This document shows, piece after piece, positions 3,722 to 35,314 of a stretch of DNA of 35,314 nucleotides. Under the pieces are notes generated by a model. That model was not told the DNA's origin, did no database searches, and was given only the letters and a program-made list of their open reading frames with translations. Location: contig JAUVAA010000012.1 of the NCBI GenBank assembly GCA_030591965.1, positions 1 through 35,314 of the forward strand, given 5' to 3'. Made by a program: the position numbers and the translations under genes. Numbering within the stretch: position 1 is the stretch's first letter; every line of letters begins with the position of its first letter. The DNA comes from a bacterium. Its GTDB lineage: Bacteria; Pseudomonadota; Gammaproteobacteria; Methylococcales; Methylomonadaceae.

Positions 3722-5014
3722 TTATAAATTTTGCTGACGTTTAGATAAAGGCAACTTACTTTGCCCTTCTATTCTATGGGCGTCTTGTTGCTTTTTCAGC
3801 AAAATACCACAAATAACAACCAGTGCAATTATATGATAATAAAGATCAAAATAAGCCAACCCTAAAAAAGCCCCCGATGCTGCATAACCCAGCAAACTTA
3901 CTTGTAGCATAGCTGCTAAATCAGATATCCATTTAGCTTCTTCAATTTTCTTTGCCTCTTTACTAATTCGTCCTGCTGAAAGCAATGTCACTACCCCGAG
4001 TACTAGAAATAATCCCACGCCAATAAAGCCGTGCTCTCCCATTACTTCAAAATAAACACTATGCGCATCATGAACATCGCTAGCAACTGGTGCATATCTA
4101 AGAAATGTAGGATACTTGAAACATTCAAAACCACCTCCAAAAATATTATCTTTTGCTAGATTAAAAGCCATCCACCAGGCATTAATTCTCCCCATTGCAG
4201 AACCATCCTGCTCATAAGTCTGGATAGTACTCATTCTGCTATGCCATGATTCTGGCATAAAATTTATAATCATGGGCATTAAAATAATAATAAGCAGAAT
4301 CATAAGAAATTTCTTCCTGCTCTTTAATATTAAAAATAGCCCCATAACTACAATTCCAACTAAAGCTCCTCGTGACTGCGTCCCTATCACTGAAAAAACA
4401 CACAACCACATTGTGACTAATAACCCTTGACGAATAAAGACAGATTCCGTTGTTAATTGTAAATATCTAATCAAAGGTATAATCATAATTAGTGCTAGTC
4501 CTATTTCATTATTCCCATAAATAAAGGTTCCACTTGGGCCATAAACAGCATAACCACCACCAGTTAAAATTGTAAATATCCCGCCCTTAAAACCATAAAA
4601 ACCTAATGATAGCGCAATAATCCAAACCATCGCTTGAACGCGCCATTTCTCTTGCATAAGAATAATGGTGACAAAAGTCATCAATTGAATCTTCCATACC
4701 TTATCCCATTGCTTCCAAGCTAAATCTGGATACATAGAAAAAATAGTAGTAATAAACATCCATATTATAAAAGCCATCAAAATTCGTAGCTCGACCGTCC
4801 AAGGAATTTTCTTTGATTCTTTTGCATTAAAAAGCCCTACAAGAATAACTAGCGCAGTAATTTTAGAAAATGGAAAGTCGTGAGCAAAACCATATGAAAG
4901 CTTGTGAGGATTCATATACCCTAACCACCCCCACAATAAAATACCAATGTGGGGACGCTTAAATACATAAGGTAATGTACCAAAGACCACAAGTGTGACA
5001 AAAAGATCCCTCAT
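3722..5014 (-). CDS. Putative O-glycosylation ligase / O-antigen-polymerase-like protein, XrtA-associated (TIGR03097 type)
   Basis: A 430-residue polytopic membrane protein with around ten hydrophobic segments. The N-terminus (PYVFKRPHIGILLWGWLGYM) and the GTFIYGNNEIGLAL region at about 162-175 are characteristic of the exosortase-A-associated branch of the Wzy/WaaL family. The large periplasmic loop (about 255-310) has the DVHDAHSVYFEVMGEHGFIG segment at 309-328, whose His is the usual catalytic candidate in Wzy/WaaL enzymes. It should polymerise the polysaccharide or transfer it to an acceptor in the periplasm. Its start codon directly abuts the stop of the sulfotransferase gene (5014/5015), so the two are translationally coupled. 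Confidence 0.88.
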   Translation of the reverse strand: MRDLFVTLVVFGTLPYVFKRPHIGILLWGWLGYMNPHKLSYGFAHDFPFSKITALVILVGLFNAKESKKIPWTVELRILMAFIIWMFITTIFSMYPDLAWKQWDKVWKIQLMTFVTIILMQEKWRVQAMVWIIALSLGFYGFKGGIFTILTGGGYAVYGPSGTFIYGNNEIGLALIMIIPLIRYLQLTTESVFIRQGLLVTMWLCVFSVIGTQSRGALVGIVVMGLFLILKSRKKFLMILLIIILMPMIINFMPESWHSRMSTIQTYEQDGSAMGRINAWWMAFNLAKDNIFGGGFECFKYPTFLRYAPVASDVHDAHSVYFEVMGEHGFIGVGLFLVLGVVTLLSAGRISKEAKKIEEAKWISDLAAMLQVSLLGYAASGAFLGLAYFDLYYHIIALVVICGILLKKQQDAHRIEGQSKLPLSKRQQNL

Positions 5015-15276: not shown

Positions 15277-16185
15277 TTATAAGTCATTTGCTAAATCTGA
15301 AAAGAGAGAAACAGCTTCTTCTAAATTGCTATATTCAAAAGAGTAGCACTGACTACGCTCTACTAGAGCACATAAACTTTCAAACCCCTGCGCACCTAAT
15401 ACATTGTAGTTAAAAGAATTCTTCGCCAACTCTATTACCGTTTCTCCTTTTGAAATTGTCGTCAAATTTGTCTCAGAACTTTCTCTATAACGCGGAAAAA
15501 CCACCCATTTAGCATTGGCTCTTAAAGTAGCCTGTGCAACACTTTCTTTATTTGGTTTCATATGACTAACCGTGCCTTTCGCGGTATCAGCAAAGGACAT
15601 TCCCATAGTGCAGTCAGGCGCAAATTGCTTAATCAAATCAATCGATTTATTCTTAAGACTAACGGGCCTCACAAAAGGAATTATTTCGTTGCTTCCTAAA
15701 TCCACAATTGCCATTTCATCTGAGAAAAGTCGCCAACCACGATTACATAAGGCAGCACACAAGGTACTTTTTCCTGCACCAGGTTTACCGCATAAAATTA
15801 ATACATGCCCCTCTTTTTCAACAACAGCCGCATGAATAATTAAATAATTATGCACCTGAGCAGCAACAACCCAATTCAAACTCCATTCAAAAAAAGGGTA
15901 AGCTTGAGAGTAAGGCAAAGGTTTAAAGGGTGTTTTACCGTCGACATAGCTTTGTACTTGCGCATTAAATAAACTACGAATACCACTCGGCTTTTTTATG
16001 GTAATATAAAAATCGACAAACAAATCAGGACTTTCTTGCAACAAAAGATAGTCCGCATAAAGCCGATCAATAGATTGCTCCACACTCTCCACCGTTGTTT
16101 CTAACTGCACAACAAAGGGCTCTATCTTAAGAAAAATCTTTTTTGCTGTAGATGTTTTCTTGAAAGCTTGATTAATAATAAACAA
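15277..16185 (-). CDS. HprK-related kinase A of the HPr-rel-A system
   Basis: A 302-residue protein with a C-terminal HPr-kinase-like domain: Walker A GKPGAGKST at 133-141 preceded by a His (HAAVVEKEG, about 118), and FSDEMAIVD at about 155-163 as the acidic metal site. The N-terminal 90 residues (IEPFVVQLETTVESV...YADYLLL) fit the HprK-related kinase A family, not classical HprK. The start is TTG at 16183-16185. No ATG or GTG occurs in frame before the conserved part, there is a TAA 24 bases upstream in the same frame, and an AAAAGGA sequence lies just before it. It overlaps the end of the PqqD-like gene by 14 bases, which makes translational coupling likely. The phosphorylated target is unknown. 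Confidence 0.85.
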   Translation of the reverse strand: MFIINQAFKKTSTAKKIFLKIEPFVVQLETTVESVEQSIDRLYADYLLLQESPDLFVDFYITIKKPSGIRSLFNAQVQSYVDGKTPFKPLPYSQAYPFFEWSLNWVVAAQVHNYLIIHAAVVEKEGHVLILCGKPGAGKSTLCAALCNRGWRLFSDEMAIVDLGSNEIIPFVRPVSLKNKSIDLIKQFAPDCTMGMSFADTAKGTVSHMKPNKESVAQATLRANAKWVVFPRYRESSETNLTTISKGETVIELAKNSFNYNVLGAQGFESLCALVERSQCYSFEYSNLEEAVSLFSDLANDL

Positions 16186-25800: not shown

Positions 25801-27000
25801 TTAATCAGTAGTTACTGTTTCGATTATGTGTGTTAACTGCTTAAGACTCGCATCCCAGCTGAAATTCTTTTGTACAAACTGACGATTTTCTTCTACATAT
25901 AGATTTGTCTGAGTATTATCTAAAAGCAAAAGTATTTGCTTTGCAAAACCTTCAGCACTTTCTTCTATATAAACCTCTTGATCGACTATCTTTATTCCTT
26001 CAATTGCCTGTGGCGTAGCAACTATTTTTTTACCCATTGCCATAGCTTCCAATACTTTATTTTGAATACCTCGCGCAATAAGTAAGGGTGCAACAACAAT
26101 AGATGAAAACCTCAAATAGGGCCGAATATCTTCAACTCTTCCAGTAACAAAGACACCTTCCGTACTAGCTAAATGCATCACTTGTTTTGTTGGTTTGGAG
26201 CCCACTATATAAAACCGTGCATTTCTACACTGCTGTTTTATTATTGGAAAAACTTCACGCACAAACCAAGTAACGGCATCAACATTAGCCCAATAGTCCA
26301 TTGCTCCCGTGAAAACAATGATATTTTCGTGCTCATTATAAGGCGTATTATAAGGTTCATTAATACTAAAATATTCCGTATCAACGCCATTATTAACAAA
26401 GCTGACTTTTTTAGAATTAATATCGACTAAGCTGGTAAATAATTGCGATTCTTCCTGAGAAACAAAAATATTCATCTTCGCTGATTTAGCAACCCTAGAA
26501 TCAAACTCTAACAACGTCTTTGCTTCACGCTTATAAACCCAGTTCATCGGCCATTTTTCTTTTTGTGAATATTGTAACCATTTATCAGAGTCAACATCTA
26601 CAAAATCAATCACACAATCGGTTTGATGTTTCTCAACATATTGAGCCATAACCGAAGAAAAAATAAATATTTTTTCTATTTTATTATCCCTAATCGTTTT
26701 ATCAACCCATTTCTGTACTTTATAGTTATGATAAAAAGGTACAGAAAGTGCTTTATTTGTAATTAATCCAGATAAACTCTTTATTTTAGCTAAAGATGGA
26801 TTAAGATTAACAAAAAAAGAGCTCGCAGTTAAATCTTCAACTTTATCAATATACTGATAATCTTCTGCATCATCGATAAATGCGGCCAAATGAATATTAT
26901 AATCTTTACTTAGGCCTTTAAGAAAATTATATGAGCGAATTTTATCCCCTTTATTAGGTGGGTAAGGGATTCGATGCGCTAGGAATAATAAATTTTTCAT
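25801..27000 (-). CDS. XrtA/PEP-CTERM-associated glycosyltransferase (TIGR03087 type)
   Basis: A 399-residue GT4-like enzyme. The N-terminal [20 protein letters not shown] (5-24) is the hallmark of this XrtA-associated family. The C-terminal half has [18 protein letters not shown] at about 230-247 and [20 protein letters not shown] at about 312-331 in the place of the EX7E region. In many XrtA loci the exosortase gene is close to this gene; here the neighbour on one side is wecB and on the other the divergent plus-strand gene at 27058. Only 57 bases separate the two start codons, so both promoters must overlap or lie close together. Confidence 0.9.
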
Positions 27001-27021
27001 ACAGCTTCTCTTTTCTAATTT

Positions 27022-27050
27022 TTTACAAAATACATTTAAAGCGATACAAT
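27022..27050 (+). promoter_or_regulatory. Candidate sigma-70 promoter for the plus-strand gene, possibly leaderless
   Basis: TTTACA (27022-27027) and TACAAT (27045-27050) each match five of six consensus bases and are separated by 17 bases. The expected transcription start, about 7 bases after the -10 box, falls at or next to the ATG at 27058. No Shine-Dalgarno sequence is present in the short gap, so a leaderless transcript is the simplest reading. Confidence 0.5.
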
Positions 27051-27057
27051 CAAAACT

Positions 27058-27762
27058 ATGAAAAAACCCCGCTCCAACATAGTTCTTTCCAAGCTAATCA
27101 GCTTCCTTTTATTTCTTGTTTTACCTGTTTTTGTAAGCGCAGCATTAGTGACAGTTGATCCTCAAGTTGACTTTCCTGTACAGCCATCAATAGCTCAACT
27201 CAACGCCAGTTCAATCAAGTCGAAACAGATAGGACCCTATCACCCCAAAAGTTATAACACTACTGATTACTCACCACTCTTTCTTACCCCAGCAAAAACT
27301 GAACAAGTACCACAAAAAACAAAGCTCTATGACCTCAAAACCCAAGGTAAAAAATTATTAAATGATTATCAGGACAACGAGCTTCTATTCGAATCTTTAA
27401 AGACACTATCCCAAGCAAAACAACTATGGAGTGATGCAGACTCATTAGCCACTGACTTCGCTCACGATATTATATTTTCCTTAGAACTGGATACCTTAAT
27501 ACATTCTGAAATATCTGCAACACCCACACTACAAAATCACAAAACAGGATTTAACACTCAAAACACAAATGCAGTGAATTACAAGCTCTACAATACAAAT
27601 CAAGATGGATCAGAAAATGCATCGGTACAAGCCTCCGATGAAGTTAGTATTTTTTTAAGTGGCTTGCTACATATAAATACACTGTACTATCTAGCAGCCA
27701 TATTAATCTTATTTAGTTTTTTACAGTGGCTTATACCTTTTATATTGCGTCTTTTTCCTTAA
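27058..27762 (+). CDS. Unknown secreted protein with C-terminal membrane helix
   Basis: A 234-residue protein, the only gene on the plus strand apart from the left-edge remnant. It starts with a clear signal peptide (MKKPRSN, hydrophobic core to about 27, VSA cleavage site) and ends with a hydrophobic segment (about 205-230) closed by a basic residue and a short tail (LRLFP). The middle is polar and has no domain I recognise; it includes a helical stretch at about 92-140. A C-terminal helix followed by a basic residue is reminiscent of sorting signals, but no PEP-type motif precedes it. Its stop codon shares TTAA (27759-27762) with that of the convergent FemAB-like gene. It occupies the spot where related loci often carry the exosortase gene. 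Confidence 0.65.
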   Translation: MKKPRSNIVLSKLISFLLFLVLPVFVSAALVTVDPQVDFPVQPSIAQLNASSIKSKQIGPYHPKSYNTTDYSPLFLTPAKTEQVPQKTKLYDLKTQGKKLLNDYQDNELLFESLKTLSQAKQLWSDADSLATDFAHDIIFSLELDTLIHSEISATPTLQNHKTGFNTQNTNAVNYKLYNTNQDGSENASVQASDEVSIFLSGLLHINTLYYLAAILILFSFLQWLIPFILRLFP

Positions 27763-28781
27763 CCTAAATCCTTTGCTAATAAAGGTCCTATCATTTGACT
27801 CATTCCCAAAGGAAGCCTTTTCCAAGCCGCAATAAAAAACCGGTACTTCGGATTTAAAGGGTTAATATCTGGCATTGAATCCGCTTTAACCAGCTCGAAT
27901 TCATAAAATAATGGTGCCTCTTCAAACCCCCAGTGCTTTTTAAATCGATAGGAACCTGTACCAATTTTACTACGCCCATAATCAAAAATTTTCACTCCCT
28001 TTTCAACTGCTCGGCGCATTACTTCCCAATACATAAAATCATTAGCATACAATTTTCTAGCTTCAGCTGTGCCGCCACCATAATACGGCAATACTTCATC
28101 TCTAAAGTAGAAATTCATCACACTGGCAATCAATTTCCCTTCGTGCTCAATAGAGATCACTTCGCATTGCTCTTTAAATACCTCTTTTAGTATTTTAAAG
28201 TATTTTTTAGGGAAAACTGGCGTACCAAGATTGCGCACACTTTCTGAATAAGCCTCAAACAAGCGATCAGCATCATTATCAATCACACTAACTAAACCTG
28301 CTTTTATGCCTTTTCTAACAACTGCACGCTGTTTTCTAGGAATAGCAGCTAAATTCTTATTTACATCAGGATCTAAATCCTTTCTAAAGGTAACATACAT
28401 GCCTTCTTTATAAGGTCTATCCGGATTTGTACGCTCTCTATTTCTAAACTCAACATGATCAACACCTAGTTCCTCCCCCAATCGACAAGCCTCTTGGTCA
28501 AGTGCTAGTACCGCATCAGCATTACCAGCAACTATGCCACCATAAACACAAAAAGCATTAGATACCAAGGCATTACCAAATAACGGGCTTTTAATATGCA
28601 CTAAAGGCAAAATACCAGTTATCTGACCTTGCTGCCACGCATAAAGGTAATAAGTTTTATGTCCAAAAGCACGTTCAATCACTTCTTGCCATTCAACTTG
28701 ATGAAAAAAGGTTGCTGCAGGGGTTTTCTCTACATATTGTTGCCAGAGAGATTTTTCTGAATTGCTTAGAATTTTTATCAT
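27759..28781 (-). CDS. FemAB-family XrtA/PEP-CTERM system-associated protein (TIGR03019 type)
   Basis: A 340-residue protein of the GNAT/FemAB fold. It opens with WQQYVEKTPAATFFHQVEWQEVI (about 13-35), typical of the XrtA-associated FemAB family, and has the second GNAT half with SVMNFYFRDEVLPYYGGG at about 222-239, YANDFMYWEVMRRAVEKG at about 247-264 and the terminal YRFKKHWGFE at about 280-289. FemAB proteins transfer amino-acyl groups to cell-wall precursors; in this setting an acyl or aminoacyl transfer to the polysaccharide or its precursor is assumed. It lies 55 bases after the deacetylase. Confidence 0.88.
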   Translation of the reverse strand: MIKILSNSEKSLWQQYVEKTPAATFFHQVEWQEVIERAFGHKTYYLYAWQQGQITGILPLVHIKSPLFGNALVSNAFCVYGGIVAGNADAVLALDQEACRLGEELGVDHVEFRNRERTNPDRPYKEGMYVTFRKDLDPDVNKNLAAIPRKQRAVVRKGIKAGLVSVIDNDADRLFEAYSESVRNLGTPVFPKKYFKILKEVFKEQCEVISIEHEGKLIASVMNFYFRDEVLPYYGGGTAEARKLYANDFMYWEVMRRAVEKGVKIFDYGRSKIGTGSYRFKKHWGFEEAPLFYEFELVKADSMPDINPLNPKYRFFIAAWKRLPLGMSQMIGPLLAKDLG

Positions 28782-28836: not shown

Positions 28837-29667
28837 TTATGGCTTTAAAAAAATAGATTGCATCGTATCCCATTCGAAATCAGTTAATAAAGATTTAATA
28901 CGCCCTTCCATTCGCTGTAAATTCAAATAGTGTCGAAATTTTGCTTTGAATGCTAAATTTTCTTGCCTAGGCTGCTTCGCATCAATTTCCCAAGGATGGA
29001 AATAAAAAATCCCAGGTTGTTGCTCAGTATTATTAACTCTGTTAAATGCCCAGCGAGAAATAAAATACGGATATAATCTAAAAAAACCACCACCGCCACA
29101 AGGATAGTTCTTACTACCCATTTTTAATGTGCTAATGGGTATTTCCTTAAAATCACTGTCTTCTATAGGGTGATAAGCAAAACGCGGCGCTTCCGGCATG
29201 CCATATAAATCATGCTTTACTGGGTAAATACTAGAGCTGTATTTATGCCCTTCTTCAGCCAAAATATCTAGCGCCCAAAGGTTGTCGCGACCTATAGAAT
29301 AACTTGCGGCTCGATAGCCTTTTATTTCTACACCACCGATCTCTTCTAACAATTTCTTCGTTTTACGTACATCAACTCGAAATTGCTCAGGCGTTTGCTC
29401 TGTTACACGAATATGTTCATAGCCATGACTGGCAAGCTCATGCCCTTCGTTAACGATTCGTTTAACGAGCTCAGGATATCGTTCTGCCACCCAGCCCAAA
29501 GTAAAAAAAGTGGCTTTAACATTATGCTCAGCAAAAACATCAAGAATATGTTGAGTATTATTTTGTACTCGATGCTCTAATGTATCCCACTGTGATTTTT
29601 TGATATACGATTCAAATGCAGAGACCTGAAAATAGTCTTCTACATCAACTGTCATGGCATTTTTCAT
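28837..29667 (-). CDS. XrtA system polysaccharide deacetylase (TIGR03006 type)
   Basis: A 276-residue NodB-type deacetylase. The motif TVDVEDYFQV at 6-15 gives the catalytic Asp and metal Asp, SHGYEH at 80-85 gives the HxxxH metal ligands, and FYFHPWEID (about 225) carries the late motif with His. It removes acetyl groups from N-acetylated sugars of the EPS. No signal peptide is visible, as usual for this family. The start at 29667 (MKNAM) is preferred, and a start at the internal Met5 is possible. It follows the barrel gene by 28 bases; an XrtA-associated ATPase gene usually found in this neighbourhood is absent. Confidence 0.92.
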   Translation of the reverse strand: MKNAMTVDVEDYFQVSAFESYIKKSQWDTLEHRVQNNTQHILDVFAEHNVKATFFTLGWVAERYPELVKRIVNEGHELASHGYEHIRVTEQTPEQFRVDVRKTKKLLEEIGGVEIKGYRAASYSIGRDNLWALDILAEEGHKYSSSIYPVKHDLYGMPEAPRFAYHPIEDSDFKEIPISTLKMGSKNYPCGGGGFFRLYPYFISRWAFNRVNNTEQQPGIFYFHPWEIDAKQPRQENLAFKAKFRHYLNLQRMEGRIKSLLTDFEWDTMQSIFLKP

Positions 29668-29695
29668 ATTACTTTATTATCAGACCTTGTATTTT

Positions 29696-31279
29696 TTAGA
29701 AATTCATGAATAAGCTAGCTGTTACTCTATTTTCCATATACGTGTTTACTGCTAAATCCGCTTCTTGCTGCACAAAACGATATTCTATACTTGCATTTAA
29801 GAGTCGACTCCTACCGAACCGCAGAGGCATAGTGCGGGTCATCCTTGCTATAAACTGATAACGGTCTTGATTCACACTAACATCAGTAGGTACTTCTACG
29901 GTATCTCCGGTAATGCGCTGCCATGACGGAGAAAGAAGAAGGCCTGTTCTTAACGAAAACTGCCAATTCCATGATGCATCTGCCCCATAAACAGTTTGCT
30001 GATCAGCAGTTGAGTTTTGATACTCTCTTTTTTCATAAAACCCACCCAACTGAAAACTACTTTTTCCTGTTGTATAGGACACTGAAGCATTTGCAACTCT
30101 TCTAACTAGCACATCATTCGTTAAGGTAGGCAAACTTGCATTGAAAATAATAGGCTGCCCGTCATTACCTAGCAGCGGATTACCCCCTGCATCAACAAAT
30201 ATAAATGGGGTATCTTCTAATAATATTTGCTGAACGGTTGTTGTGTCTTCTGAATACGTAAAGTTCCATGATGATCTTTTTGTACTATGATTCAAAGAAG
30301 CATTCCATGCCCCTCCCGTATTTAAACCTACAGAACGATCATTATAACCAGCACTTAAGTGTGTACGTCGGCTCAAACTAAGATTAGATACCACATGCCA
30401 GTTATTACCATAACCCGCTTCAACATCAAAATACCAGTTCGGTTTCCATTGCGCTCCTACCGTATAAAAAACACCATTCGTGTTAGTATCTAGATTTTGA
30501 AAACTATTATTAGCATAGCCAACTGTGCCAAAGAAATTAAATCGCCTATCCACCCAGGCTCTTATCGTGGCGGTAGTATTTTGAAAACTCACATTATCTT
30601 CATTATCTCGGAACTGGGTCGAATTATCAAAATTGGCATTCCAAGTGATATGCTTAAAATCACTGCCACTGATTAAACTTATGGACTCACTCAGGTTCAT
30701 GGAATTGGCTAGCTGTTCAGCATTATCATTACCTACATAATCAAAATCTATACTGACATTAGCATCAGCAAACTGCCCAAAATGTGGGGTCCAATTTACT
30801 GAAGTACCCGCTGTCCATACATTTGTTCGAGTATCCAAGTTATTAATATTATCACCGCCTCTCAAGTTACTAATATTTGCCTGACTATAGCTACTTCGAG
30901 CGGCGACATTAAGCCGGTTACGTATAACTTGGTAATCGGTATCAAGTTGCAACTGATGATTAATTTGTGCCTGCCTATCTCCTCCAGCATTAAAGAGATT
31001 TTGCATGCGATAATCAAAATTAGCATTTAAACGTCCACCATTAATACCTCTTACAGAAATACCTGGACTAATTTCTGTAACAAATGCACCTTTTTCTAGC
31101 CCTTTAGGCGCTAAGTTTATATTATCTGAATAAGTTTCTTGAAATGTTAGGCTAGGCGTAAATCGAAAGTCAATGGCTGATACTGACGTTTGAGCAAATA
31201 TAGTATAAGTAGCGCCAATTAACACGATAAGTCTACGCACTTTATTATAGTTTTGCCTTTTAGTGCCCATACTGCCCAT
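29696..31279 (-). CDS. TIGR03016-type PEP-CTERM system-associated outer-membrane protein
   Basis: A 527-residue protein with a signal peptide (about 1-35, VSA cleavage), then long alternating beta strands rich in aromatic residues and Asn, and a C-terminal Phe (SLFMNF), the usual end of outer-membrane barrels. The opening of the mature part (FRFTPSLTFQETYSDNINLAPKG) is typical of the family, which looks like a BamA-assembled porin for the EPS. Two starts, 31279 (ATG) and 31270 (ATG), are possible, and the first overlaps the tyrosine kinase gene by 20 bases. Function by analogy only. Confidence 0.85.
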   Translation of the reverse strand: MGSMGTKRQNYNKVRRLIVLIGATYTIFAQTSVSAIDFRFTPSLTFQETYSDNINLAPKGLEKGAFVTEISPGISVRGINGGRLNANFDYRMQNLFNAGGDRQAQINHQLQLDTDYQVIRNRLNVAARSSYSQANISNLRGGDNINNLDTRTNVWTAGTSVNWTPHFGQFADANVSIDFDYVGNDNAEQLANSMNLSESISLISGSDFKHITWNANFDNSTQFRDNEDNVSFQNTTATIRAWVDRRFNFFGTVGYANNSFQNLDTNTNGVFYTVGAQWKPNWYFDVEAGYGNNWHVVSNLSLSRRTHLSAGYNDRSVGLNTGGAWNASLNHSTKRSSWNFTYSEDTTTVQQILLEDTPFIFVDAGGNPLLGNDGQPIIFNASLPTLTNDVLVRRVANASVSYTTGKSSFQLGGFYEKREYQNSTADQQTVYGADASWNWQFSLRTGLLLSPSWQRITGDTVEVPTDVSVNQDRYQFIARMTRTMPLRFGRSRLLNASIEYRFVQQEADLAVNTYMENRVTASLFMNF

Positions 31280-32093
31280 AACCGTAATAATCTAACTTAA
31301 GCTCATGCTTAGATTTATTCAATAATGCTAAGACTACATCGACAGATTCTAGTTTTTTAATGGCATCCTGCACTGTACTTTGCATTGTAGTCTCTGCACT
31401 AATCACAAAAACAACCTGCCCTACTAAACTAGCCAGTACCTCTGCTTGTGTCGCTGCTAATAAAGGCGGAGAATCGAAAATTACAATACGATCAGGATAA
31501 CGCTGACTCAATTCATCAACAAATTCCGCCATTTTATTACTGCTCAATAACTCTGTCGAAAAGGCATGACGCTTTCCTGCAGGGATAACTTGTAGACCAG
31601 GTAAATCCGTTTTGAAACATATATCAGAAAAGCCTACATCATCACTTTCCAGGTACTCTATAAGCCCTAGTGATTCAGTAATTCCCAGTCGCTTAGCTAA
31701 AGTAGGCTTGGAAACATCAGCATCAATTAATAAAACATTTTTATCTCTTTCATTAGCAATACTGAGTGCTAAATTAATAGCACTAAATGACTTGCCTTCT
31801 CCCGGTATGCTACTTGTCACTAGAATAAGATTTGCTCGCTTTATTCCTTTAGCACCCTTACTAAACGCATTAGTAATTAAGGGGCGTTTAATCATTCTAT
31901 ATTCTTCAATCAAAGCTGAATTCACTTGCTCACGAGATAAATACCCATCAGCAGCCAGCGTATCCCAATCAAGACCAAACGTTTGCTGTTTATTTTCTAT
32001 ATTTGATTGCAGTCTAACCTTGCTTTCTGATTTTTTATTTTCGATACTTTCATTTTGTACAGATTTTTCTAAGGCCTTCTCTAAAATATCCAT
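31260..32093 (-). CDS. XrtA-associated bacterial tyrosine autokinase (TIGR03018 type)
   Basis: A 277-residue BY-kinase. Walker A SIPGEGKS at 95-102, Walker A' LLIDADVSKP at 121-130 and Walker B IVIFDSPP at 203-210. The C-terminus is the tyrosine cluster DYYGYGQYGH (Tyr269, 270, 272 and 275), the autophosphorylation tail that regulates EPS length in this family. It works with the chain-length protein encoded just upstream (13 bases apart), whose C-terminal cytoplasmic side activates it. The N-terminal 60 residues with SREQVNSALIEEYRMIKRPL are the usual family extension. Confidence 0.93.
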   Translation of the reverse strand: MDILEKALEKSVQNESIENKKSESKVRLQSNIENKQQTFGLDWDTLAADGYLSREQVNSALIEEYRMIKRPLITNAFSKGAKGIKRANLILVTSSIPGEGKSFSAINLALSIANERDKNVLLIDADVSKPTLAKRLGITESLGLIEYLESDDVGFSDICFKTDLPGLQVIPAGKRHAFSTELLSSNKMAEFVDELSQRYPDRIVIFDSPPLLAATQAEVLASLVGQVVFVISAETTMQSTVQDAIKKLESVDVVLALLNKSKHELKLDYYGYGQYGH

Positions 32094-32106
32094 TCCATTT
32101 CCTCCT

Positions 32107-33657
32107 CTATCGAAAACTCAATACATTACTCATTACCAAAAAGTAAGCGAGTAAAAGTCCAAAAAAAGAAAACCAAAACAAAATTTGATTGGTTTTCGTA
32201 GACTTTTCTCCCTCTTTTAACTGCATAGATACACTACCCAACACTGGTAAGCCAGTTACTGTTCTAACTTGCCGAGTCGACATAAAAGTTGGTCTAATAA
32301 AATAAATTAAAAAAGCCAAAACCAGCCCTATGAGCAAACTCACTATAAGCGCAGCTGAATTAAAAAGCTTACGATTAGGTCCAGAAGGGGACAGCGCTTT
32401 ACTCGGTGCATCAACAACTTTAAACCTTAAGATACCTTGACTACTGTCTGCTTTTTCGGTCATAGAAGCTTGCTCTCTTCGCTGAATTAACGACATATAG
32501 TTAGATTTAATAACCGAATAATCTCGATCAAGGTTTTGCATTTCTGTTTCTATGCTCAACCTAGTATCCATTCCCTTTTGTATTTCATTTTTCCTTTGAG
32601 ATAATAAACCTATTCTTGAACGTAAAGAAGCATGTTGAGCTTCAGCGTTATTTAAAGCAATTTTTAAAGATTGTATGTACGGGTTATTAATAGCTCCAGA
32701 ACTCATAATACTAGTAGACTCAGGCATGCTCTCTAAGCGCTGCATTTTACTTTTCTGCAAGTCTTGAATTGTAGCCTTTATACTTAATACATCTGGGTGC
32801 TTTTCCGTATATTGCAATAAAAGCTCACTCATTCTTCCTTCTAATATAGAAATTTTAGCATCCTCTGGAGTAGATTGAGCACTTCCTGTATCAGAAAGCC
32901 CCCATTCATCCTCGGCTTCATCACCTAATTCCAGCGCTTCATCCATCTGATTTTTTAACACATGTAGCCTTGAGTTAACTTCACTCAAAGCCATCTGAGT
33001 TTCCTGAATCTGCGTTTTGATAGAGCTTAACGCCCCTAACTGTCCTCCTCCTTGGTTCGGTAAAAGACCAGCATTAATTCGCTTAAAATTTTCTCTAGCT
33101 TTCTCTGCATTCTTTAATCGAGCTTCATATTCACTAATTTGCTCTTCAATAAACTGCTGTGCAGAACCCGTATCAGATATTCCTCTTTGCTGCGTCTGCT
33201 CAGAAAAAACAGTCAGTACAGCGTGAACAATATCCTGCGATTTTTTAGGGTCGGAGGATTCATAAGAAATGGTAAATATGTCATTTCTTCCACCTGAAAT
33301 CTTAACATTGCTTTTTAAATCCTGAATGATAGATTGCTTTTCTGCTTCGCTCTTAGAATCAATATCTAACTCACCCAATTGGGCAATTTTCTCCAAGTTA
33401 GGTCGCGTAAACATAAGTTGTTGCATTACTTGAACTAATCCACGCGTATTAGACTGTATTGCCATACCACGCAATAAAGGCCTCAGCATCGAACCACTAT
33501 CAACACTCACTTTTGCCTCAGAGCTGTATTTATCAGGCATAGTACTGACAAACACCCACCCAGCACTACTAATAAACCAAGCAGTAATAATGATCAGCCA
33601 TTTATATTTTAATGTCCCTTTGACATAAAATAGAATTTCAGATAATTGATCTTGCAT
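32107..33657 (-). CDS. XrtA system polysaccharide chain-length determinant (Wzz-like, TIGR03007 type)
   Basis: A 516-residue inner-membrane protein. It has an N-terminal membrane helix at about 19-37 (WLIIITAWFISSAGWVFVS), a periplasmic domain with long coiled-coil segments (about 160-400), a P-rich LSPSGPNRK before the second helix at about 430-448, and a further C-terminal hydrophobic helix at about 490-512. This fits the polysaccharide co-polymerase role: setting chain length and contacting the kinase. The 144-base gap to the export gene upstream (33658-33801) shows a small AT-rich palindrome but no convincing promoter. Confidence 0.92.
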   Translation of the reverse strand: MQDQLSEILFYVKGTLKYKWLIIITAWFISSAGWVFVSTMPDKYSSEAKVSVDSGSMLRPLLRGMAIQSNTRGLVQVMQQLMFTRPNLEKIAQLGELDIDSKSEAEKQSIIQDLKSNVKISGGRNDIFTISYESSDPKKSQDIVHAVLTVFSEQTQQRGISDTGSAQQFIEEQISEYEARLKNAEKARENFKRINAGLLPNQGGGQLGALSSIKTQIQETQMALSEVNSRLHVLKNQMDEALELGDEAEDEWGLSDTGSAQSTPEDAKISILEGRMSELLLQYTEKHPDVLSIKATIQDLQKSKMQRLESMPESTSIMSSGAINNPYIQSLKIALNNAEAQHASLRSRIGLLSQRKNEIQKGMDTRLSIETEMQNLDRDYSVIKSNYMSLIQRREQASMTEKADSSQGILRFKVVDAPSKALSPSGPNRKLFNSAALIVSLLIGLVLAFLIYFIRPTFMSTRQVRTVTGLPVLGSVSMQLKEGEKSTKTNQILFWFSFFGLLLAYFLVMSNVLSFR

Positions 33658-33801
33658 TCTTTACCTTTCAAATAATCTACATTTACAAAAAATAACAAGT
33701 CAACTACCTATTATTTCAATATCAAAAACGAATTATCAAATTTTCCATAACTGAAAAACATGATAAGCAACCCAAAGCTACTAAGGAATATTCCTTTTTA
33801 T

Positions 33802-34458
33802 TTAAAAGAAGGCTTCCGGAATTACTAAAATATCACCTGGCATAATTTTAACATTAAGAGACATGTCTGCATCTTCAATTAAATCATCCATTTTCACGCC
33901 AAACTGTTGTGGCTTACCATTAACATTTCGAATAATACTTGCTCTATTACCATCAGCATACTGCCCTATCTGACCAATAATAATAACTAGGTCTAATAAT
34001 GTCATTCCTTTTTCATAAGGAACAGTTTGACCACTATAACGACTACCACCGCCACCGCCACCGCCACCGCCACCGCCACCGCCACCAATTTGACCCACTA
34101 TTCGTACTTGCTGCTCATACACGCCTTGAAACCCTGTCACCATAACAACTACTTTGGGGTCTCTAATATAAACACCTAACTCCTTCTCCATAGTTCGTGC
34201 CATTTCATACGGTGTTTTACCGATAGCAACTACATCCTCAACAAGAGGAAGTGTAATTTTACCATCAGGTCGCACAGGAACGGACATAGAGACATCTGGA
34301 TGCCCCCAAACAAAAATATTAACATTATCCCCTGGACCGATTATATAAGTGTAATCATCCGATAGTGTTGCATCATTTTTTAATGGGGGATACGAGCACC
34401 CTGCAAATACTAAAGAACACATGATTAAAATCAGAACCTTATAACTAGGTTGTGCCAT
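33802..34458 (-). CDS. XrtA system exopolysaccharide export lipoprotein (Wza-like, TIGR03027 type)
   Basis: A protein of 218 residues from the ATG at 34456-34458. This start is preferred because it follows AGAGG at a suitable distance and gives a lipoprotein signal with lipobox LVFAGC (Cys21). An upstream reading from TTG at 34506 or ATG at 34488 would add residues not typical of a signal sequence. The mature protein has the polysaccharide export domain (YIIGPGDNVNIFVWGHPDVS...VRPDGKITLPLVEDV, about 38-82) and an SLBB-like part (VRIVGQIG then PYEKGMTLLDLVIIIGQIG). It forms the outer-membrane secretin-like ring. Between the two halves of the SLBB part lies a run of 14 glycines, unusual for the family and encoded by a simple repeat. 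Confidence 0.9.
   Translation of the reverse strand: MAQPSYKVLILIMCSLVFAGCSYPPLKNDATLSDDYTYIIGPGDNVNIFVWGHPDVSMSVPVRPDGKITLPLVEDVVAIGKTPYEMARTMEKELGVYIRDPKVVVMVTGFQGVYEQQVRIVGQIGGGGGGGGGGGGGGSRYSGQTVPYEKGMTLLDLVIIIGQIGQYADGNRASIIRNVNGKPQQFGVKMDDLIEDADMSLNVKIMPGDILVIPEAFF
34045..34086. repeat. Six-base microsatellite coding for 14 glycines in the export gene
   Basis: Plus strand: ACCACC followed by six GCCACC units, 42 bases in all, coding on the minus strand for glycine only. Copy changes of 3 or 6 bases would keep the frame. Confidence 0.95.
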
Positions 34459-34545
34459 TTTTTTTCCTCTATATTTTATATAATTCATATTATTACTAAA
34501 GAGCAAAGGGGAGGTAGTAATACTTGATCCTAAGCACTGATAAAG

Positions 34546-35314
34546 CTAATGTCCACGCATTGTATTAATAATTTTCTGCTTCATTTGTTCTGCTACTTTA
34601 CGTTCTGGAAATAAAGCACCTTGCTTTGCTAATTCAATAGCCTGATCTACCTGCACCAAGGCAGTACTATTATTACCATTTTTATATTCAGCTATACCTA
34701 AATGATACCTAAAGACAGGAGTATTAGGAGACTTAATAATGAGTTGTTTAAATATTTTTACTGAACCCTTTATATCACCATTATGTAATAAAACCCATGC
34801 ATATGTATCTTGATAATAAGCCTGTTCAGAATTAGCAAATGATTCAGTTAATTGCTGAGCGCGCTTTAAATTTTCTGCTGTAGGATAGTGATCAACCAAT
34901 AAAGTAGCTAAGTTATTAGTCGCAACATCTAATTCAGGGGCATTAGCAATAAGTTGCTCATAAATACCTACAGCTAACTTAAACTTTTTTTGCTGTTCAT
35001 AGAGTGATGCTAGTGCTAAAGATAACCTTATATTCTTAGGGTGCGCTTTTAAACCGTCTTGGTAAACAGATATTGCTTTATCAGTTTTACCCATAGCTAT
35101 ATACACTTTAGCTAAATAATGTTGAGCTAAAGCGATTTGAGGTTGAGACTTTATTAATTTTTTTAATAAAGAGGTAGCTTTAGTGTACTTTTTATCTTTT
35201 ACATATAATTCGGATAATAATAAAACAGCGGCCACATTACCTTTATTTTCTTTAATTTGGTTCTGCAGAAAACTGAGCATTTTTGACCGTTTATTAAGTT
35301 TTTCATAGCATACA
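34546..35314 (-). CDS. prsT: PrsT-like XrtA/PEP-CTERM system TPR-repeat protein, C-terminal part
   Basis: The first Met in the window is at 35280, but the frame stays open to the right edge (11 more codons, VCYEKLNKRSK), so this is most likely the 3' part of a longer gene. The 244 residues after that Met consist of TPR units (LLLSELYVKDKKYTKATSLLKK, LAKVYIAMGKTDKAISVYQ, LASLYEQQKKFKLAVGIYE), then the sequence NNLATLLVDHYPTAENLKRAQ and DTYAWVLLHNGDIKGSVKIFK typical of the end of PrsT-type proteins (family TIGR02917, about 900 residues). It would be a periplasmic scaffold of the EPS machinery. It is the most upstream gene of the visible operon. Confidence 0.8.
   Translation of the reverse strand, partial: VCYEKLNKRSKMLSFLQNQIKENKGNVAAVLLLSELYVKDKKYTKATSLLKKLIKSQPQIALAQHYLAKVYIAMGKTDKAISVYQDGLKAHPKNIRLSLALASLYEQQKKFKLAVGIYEQLIANAPELDVATNNLATLLVDHYPTAENLKRAQQLTESFANSEQAYYQDTYAWVLLHNGDIKGSVKIFKQLIIKSPNTPVFRYHLGIAEYKNGNNSTALVQVDQAIELAKQGALFPERKVAEQMKQKIINTMRGH

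Follow-up and report, generated by a model that had tools for sequence, protein, structure and literature searches.

The 35,314-nucleotide stretch of DNA analysed here, referred to as the window, carries a gene for a protein of 234 aa, the orphan, that is read on the plus strand within an otherwise collinear series of minus-strand EPS genes. It is a real, selected and narrowly spread lineage-specific gene, and its family is fast-evolving and stands in an unusual antisense position. We tentatively propose, with a probability of about 0.42, that the orphan encodes a Sec-exported, inner-membrane-anchored accessory of an XrtA-type EPS machine, placed in a noncontiguous-operon-like arrangement and translated from a leaderless mRNA. 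A leaderless start is plausible, and the mechanism set out below is drawn mostly from sequence. We read the carriers as some deep-sea methane-oxidising bacteria, including a mussel endosymbiont.

Position and relatives of the orphan

The orphan, its neighbours and the sequences between them are located as follows.

27058..27762, plus strand: orphan gene, 234 aa (ORF list, relatives, purifying selection, hydropathy, low-confidence structure model)
27759..28781, minus strand: femAB-like gene, TIGR03019 (478 bits), upstream of the interruption
25801..27000, minus strand: glycosyltransferase, TIGR03087 (507 bits), downstream of the interruption
27759..27762, no strand: TTAA in which the orphan and femAB stop codons overlap (ORF ends; 4 bp)
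27001..27057, no strand: 57 bp that separate the start codons of the divergent orphan and glycosyltransferase genes, holding the orphan promoter and CTCTTTT
27022..27050, plus strand: sigma-70-like promoter of the orphan, TTTACA (27022-27027), 17-nt spacer, TACAAT (27045-27050), 10/12 matches
28837..35280, minus strand: remaining XrtA-type EPS locus on the femAB side, with TIGR03006, TIGR03016, TIGR03018, TIGR03007, TIGR03027 and a TPR gene (profile matches)

NCBIfam matches of the neighbours identify the host locus as an XrtA-type EPS locus. At its far end the TPR gene runs off the window, and its match to TIGR02917 (PrsT) stayed below the cut-off. The sequence-only reading that preceded this study had described the orphan as opposed to all its neighbours and as sharing its stop with the FemAB-like gene, and both statements are correct. 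All window ORFs of at least 150 aa lie on the minus strand except the orphan and a TTG ORF at 31612-32154, which overlaps a kinase gene. CTCTTTT was found in five of five gaps between the orphan and the glycosyltransferase and is read as the putative ribosome site of the latter. Elsewhere in the window, an HprK-related kinase A gene with a TTG start (15277-16185, TIGR04352, 376 bits) lies in the EPS region; relatives of this gene and of the gene next to it are also present in G002 (L027). Positions 3722-5014 encode PEP_O_lig_1, a putative O-glycosylation ligase of the exosortase A system (TIGR03097, 540 bits).

A profile search found relatives of the orphan in seven genomes, out of 237 scanned for the family and 311 for the order. 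Six of these carriers, the window's own genome included, belong to one genus, which we read as Methyloprofundus; the seventh (G019) belongs to another genus. Among the carriers, G012 is read as Methyloprofundus sp. Kmv24 and G005 as the methanotrophic endosymbiont of Bathymodiolus puteoserpentis. In a class sample of 369 genomes, the only matches besides the own genome were three weak ones (E 0.003-0.009); these were considered as distant relatives and taken as noise, two of them having internal stops. The orphan has no searchable name, and no mention of it was found among the titles and abstract beginnings returned from the open-access library searched.

In G005, G011, G012 and G014, likewise of this genus, a full-length relative is found at the corresponding place, so that slot and direction are identical in the five genus genomes in which both flanks are readable. 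In the sixth, G008, only the femAB side is visible, since the contig ends inside the orphan. The 4-bp overlap of the orphan and femAB stops is present in all six genus carriers. In the G008 copy (L011, 12147-12631) the frame is interrupted by a TAG close to the helical segment and at the contig end, which reflects either a broken gene or an assembly error.

The sequence-only reading had suggested a new locus-specific factor and, as a check, a search for homologues beside TIGR03087 and FemAB genes. Within the genus the suggestion was borne out: femAB is present in 8 of 18 genomes, and the orphan was found in six of these eight and in none of the ten without femAB (several genomes being incomplete), with the genus carriers linked to the EPS locus. 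The opposite case, a homologue with no link to EPS, was encountered once. The relative in G019, which matches the orphan at 64.4 bits versus at most 10.3 in 2000 shuffles, is 24-28% identical to the genus orphans and lies in a different genomic place outside the EPS locus. It is located 91 bp upstream of a 1275-aa gene that appears NRPS-like by eye and has the same direction (L014, 3736-8401), near pterin-cofactor (tetrahydromethanopterin-type) genes.

The promoter-like sequence and the start of the transcript

A well-spaced -35/-10 pair and the lack of a Shine-Dalgarno sequence had been noted for the window, and both were confirmed. TTTACA-17-TACAAT has 10/12 matches and ends 7 nt before the ATG, and no Shine-Dalgarno match of at least 3 nt precedes the window's orphan within the stretch tested. 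The transcript that might begin at the start codon, as suggested from these two features, received a more divided answer from the relatives. The same hexamers at the same distance to the ATG are present in G005, and these two putative promoters share descent. In G019 we found TTTACA-18-TAAAAT, likewise 7 nt before the ATG; the recurrence of this spacing in a distant relative from another genus and another place speaks against pure chance. However, the arrangement is absent in three relatives. TACAAT is kept in G012 and the -35 element is gone, by eye through a deletion, whereas TTTACA-17-TAAAAT ends 65 nt before the ATG in G011 and TGATACAAT ends 42 nt before it in G014. As the promoter is missing or moved in these three genus relatives, leaderlessness is plausible rather than established. 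Leaderless translation is likely in the window and G005 and possible in G019, and judged by these sequences a leaderless start is not a fixed trait of the orphan family.

Loss of the -35 element in G012 and the distant pairs in G011 and G014 would also fit an ordinary mode of expression, with a leadered transcript from an unrecognised start and a promoter-like pair that arose by chance in AT-rich DNA. We regard this explanation as possible, though less likely than not. Bare promoter matches in the region are unremarkable, with 6 observed versus 8.5 expected in shuffles. Nevertheless, the exact spacing to the ATG in the window, in G005 and in the distant G019 argues against it. We scanned 146 gene starts, taken from mechanical ORFs of at least 150 aa in ten loci, several of which are homologous. 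Only three of these starts have a 10/12 pair that ends 5-9 nt ahead of them, and they belong to the orphans of the window, G005 and G019; a 9/12 pair at that distance preceded three further starts, all of other genes. Of 5411 ATGs in eight loci, 12 reach 10/12. Moreover, a Shine-Dalgarno sequence of at least 4 nt occurred in the tested stretch of none of six orphan relatives versus 64 of the 146 gene starts, where G019 is to be read with its AAGGT immediately before the ATG, closer than the stretch tested.

Selection and history of the junction

In the three closest carriers, the window, G005 and G012 (thus not G011 or G014), dN/dS of the orphan was 0.28-0.35 by NG86 and 0.40-0.68 by YN00. The values of six neighbour genes, namely femAB, the glycosyltransferase, the deacetylase, TIGR03016, the wecB-like gene and the chain-length gene, were 0.04-0.15 and 0.03-0.12, respectively, which makes the orphan the fastest-evolving and least constrained of the seven genes compared. 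NG86 dS of the orphan was 0.68-0.98 versus 0.55-0.96 for the neighbours. Because dN/dS is below 1 and dS resembles that of the neighbours, the orphan is coding and seems to have been inherited together with the locus. We infer that it is translated, that purifying selection on it is weak and that it has been in its slot for about as long as the genes around it. Its GC content is near that of the neighbours in the window, G005, G012 and G014, lower in G011, and in G019 lower than that of its own contig. A mobile or phage origin is unsupported: besides the GC content, which is mostly near that of the neighbours, the orphan had no match at E up to 0.01 in plasmids and phages, a pattern-based search of viral contigs gave no relative, and PHROGs gave no significant match.

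Where the orphan is absent, its flanks are adjacent. In G009 and G002 femAB is directly followed by the glycosyltransferase, with gaps of 26 and 16 bp, and the orphan profile had no match in either genome (G009, two contigs, 100% complete; G002, 77%). A search of the family gave 86 genomes above the TIGR03019 cut-off, eight of the orphan genus included, and 30 femAB loci of other genera were fetched. In 27 of these 30 the TIGR03087 glycosyltransferase lies 3-39 bp after femAB; in the remaining three (L034, L044 and L049, all of genus g3) it is outside the fetched stretch. One genome of another genus, G223, has three TIGR03019 genes above the cut-off (C62, C193 and C206), two of them at 263-268 bits.

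The description of the orphan's slot as the usual place of the exosortase is not supported in these Methylomonadaceae loci. A glycosyltransferase 3-39 bp after femAB leaves no room for an exosortase in the 27 loci, and in G009 and G002 there is none between the two genes either. The exosortase-like gene of the window's own genome lies on another contig (C120) and scored 154 bits against XrtA, below the cut-off of 208, and above the cut-off of the general model. This match (L015, 577-2068) is the only one of its genome and adjoins a 217-aa ORF. Other members of the genus have similar exosortase-like genes whose open frames span 287-306 aa, and an exosortase-like gene is present in all eight femAB-holding genus genomes.

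The locus tree covers only two of five genes for its four outgroups and no glycosyltransferase for G008 and G011. In it, G009 stands next to the window's clade (support 72), and support near G002 is 48. Forcing the six carriers into one clade was rejected (AU p 0.0034), and with it one gain in an ancestor common to the six and not to G009. The orphan may therefore have been lost in G009, which would be the simplest reading; alternatives are that it was gained more than once or that the locus was exchanged.

With the TAG in G008 counted, three of the eight loci have no orphan or an interrupted one. This leads to the main rival of a role in EPS, namely that the orphan is a dispensable lineage-specific passenger, an exported membrane protein unrelated to EPS that is tolerated at the junction and is being lost in some lineages. 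We consider this possible, if somewhat doubtful. Its absence from two of eight loci and the in-frame stop in a third would be expected of a passenger, as would the weakest constraint of the seven genes and a relative beside an NRPS-like gene in G019. However, dN/dS is below 1 and the frame is kept in five of six carriers. Moreover, position and overlap remain unchanged across lineages of the genus whose orphans share about 30% identity.

Protein features and proposed role

The orphan protein consists of a signal-peptide-like segment, a linker, a helical segment (about residues 93-153), a second linker and a C-terminal hydrophobic helix. Its two ends are encoded as follows.

27058..27144, plus strand: residues 1-29, a Sec signal-peptide-like segment whose likely cleavage site reads V-S-A-A (alignment, hydropathy)
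27673..27759, plus strand: C-terminal hydrophobic, probably transmembrane helix, residues 206-234, ending LRLFP (alignment, model, hydropathy)

The signal-peptide cleavage rule was applied to V-S-A-A, and A29 at the likely cleavage site is invariant in six of six aligned sequences. Established topology rules predict an N-out, C-in orientation that leaves about 175 residues in the periplasm. A secreted protein held by a C-terminal helix had been proposed before; by hydropathy, a hydrophobic N-terminal segment and a hydrophobic C-terminus recur in all six relatives examined, the window's included, and anchoring by the latter is probable. Even the best AlphaFold model has a poor mean pLDDT of 52.6; it shows helices at residues 6-29, 93-103, 108-143, 146-153, 188-203 and 206-232 and no structure elsewhere.

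That the protein has no known domain was confirmed in Pfam, NCBIfam, PHROGs and PDB sequences, none of which gave a significant match. The window protein matched no Pfam family at E up to 1 and had only two weak NCBIfam matches (E 0.02 and 0.075), while the G019 protein had none there at 0.001. Across six members, Pfam returned only two families, each for one member (E 0.099 and 0.17), and the best E in PHROGs was 0.019; a profile search of the PDB gave none at E up to 1. A regulator was one of the functions suggested earlier; a DNA-binding one is unsupported, as the protein is apparently exported and no regulatory domain was found. An exosortase was rejected, since there is no family match and only two hydrophobic regions are present, in contrast to the multi-spanning EpsH enzyme.

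We propose that the orphan entered the junction of femAB and the glycosyltransferase backwards and may now be the opposed member of a noncontiguous-operon-like arrangement. No terminator-like site was found between 26500 and 28900 (1.4 expected). Towards the glycosyltransferase, the window and G005 have no promoter-like site, whereas G012, G014 and G011 have weak ones. The EPS transcript would read through the orphan in antisense to reach the glycosyltransferase, and the EPS and orphan mRNAs could pair over the whole orphan and restrain each other. The orphan transcript would start at or next to the ATG and be translated leaderless. Its product would be a Sec-exported, periplasmic and mostly disordered protein with one helical segment and a single C-terminal helix in the inner membrane, most likely an accessory or tuning part of the surrounding XrtA-type EPS machine. 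This role in EPS we infer from the position of the gene alone. In Methylomonas sp. LW13, another methanotroph, disruption of epsH was reported to lower EPS (PMC11072679), so that such systems can matter in this group.

A stronger form of this proposal is a two-way switch gained in deep-sea methanotrophs including the mussel endosymbiont, in which the leaderless antisense mRNA would silence part of the EPS operon and the anchored product would retune the EPS machine. We consider it unlikely.

Less likely still is that an exosortase-like enzyme cleaves the C-terminal helix as a non-canonical sorting signal, which would place the protein outside the cell to anchor EPS. The orphan sits in an XrtA-type locus, and an exosortase-like gene occurs in each of the eight genus genomes with femAB. 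Besides, PEP-CTERM matches are fewer in genomes with the orphan (1-5) than in those with empty sites (11 in G002 and 22 in G009), a contrast of six versus two genomes whose completeness varies from 63 to 100%. All these counts are of PF07589 matches at E up to 0.01; the orphan-bearing genomes had 2 in G000, 1 in G012, 4 in G005, 1 in G008, 3 in G011 and 5 in G014. The orphan resembles PEP-CTERM proteins in its signal-peptide-like N-terminus and its C-terminal helix. It differs from them in that a PEP motif is absent, that the helix is not followed by a basic cluster, with one Arg in the tail, and that there is no match to PF07589 or another PEP-CTERM family at E up to 1; we therefore rejected it as a PEP-CTERM protein. 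The terminal LRLFP (LRFFP in G014) is kept within the genus, but the tail is not conserved in G019.

A spurious ORF without product, to which the opposed direction and the lack of a known domain might point, is extremely improbable and was rejected on the codon-change pattern of the dN/dS analysis, as full-length frames are conserved and third-position changes are in excess.

Close relatives that have this operon junction with and without the orphan offer a natural test of the effect of an antisense gene on the series that it interrupts. Moreover, the family is small and uncharacterised and has a clear genetic context, so that a deletion test would be simple wherever a carrier is culturable. 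If read-through takes place, it would add a noncontiguous operon in a methanotroph EPS locus, with a mussel symbiont among the carriers.

The host locus of the orphan is of the known XrtA/PEP-CTERM-associated EPS kind (TIGR03087, 03019, 03006, 03016, 03018, 03007 and 03027). The orphan itself, however, matches none of the curated families of this locus and occurs, among the genomes searched, only in some members of one genus and in one outlier. With leaderless mRNAs (PMC9031893) it shares a promoter that ends 7 nt before the ATG and the lack of a visible Shine-Dalgarno sequence; the orphan differs in that its arrangement varies among relatives and is known here from sequence. A further parallel is the noncontiguous operon, such as menE-menC-MW1733-ytkD-MW1731 of Staphylococcus aureus; for operons of this kind, reciprocal control by transcriptional collision and RNase III is described (PMC7154746). 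In both cases one gene on the opposite strand interrupts a collinear series, and the mRNA of the orphan would, as in S. aureus, pair lengthwise with the operon transcript. In contrast to the staphylococcal operon, the arrangement described here is known from DNA alone, lies in the EPS locus of a methanotroph and is possibly combined with a leaderless start.
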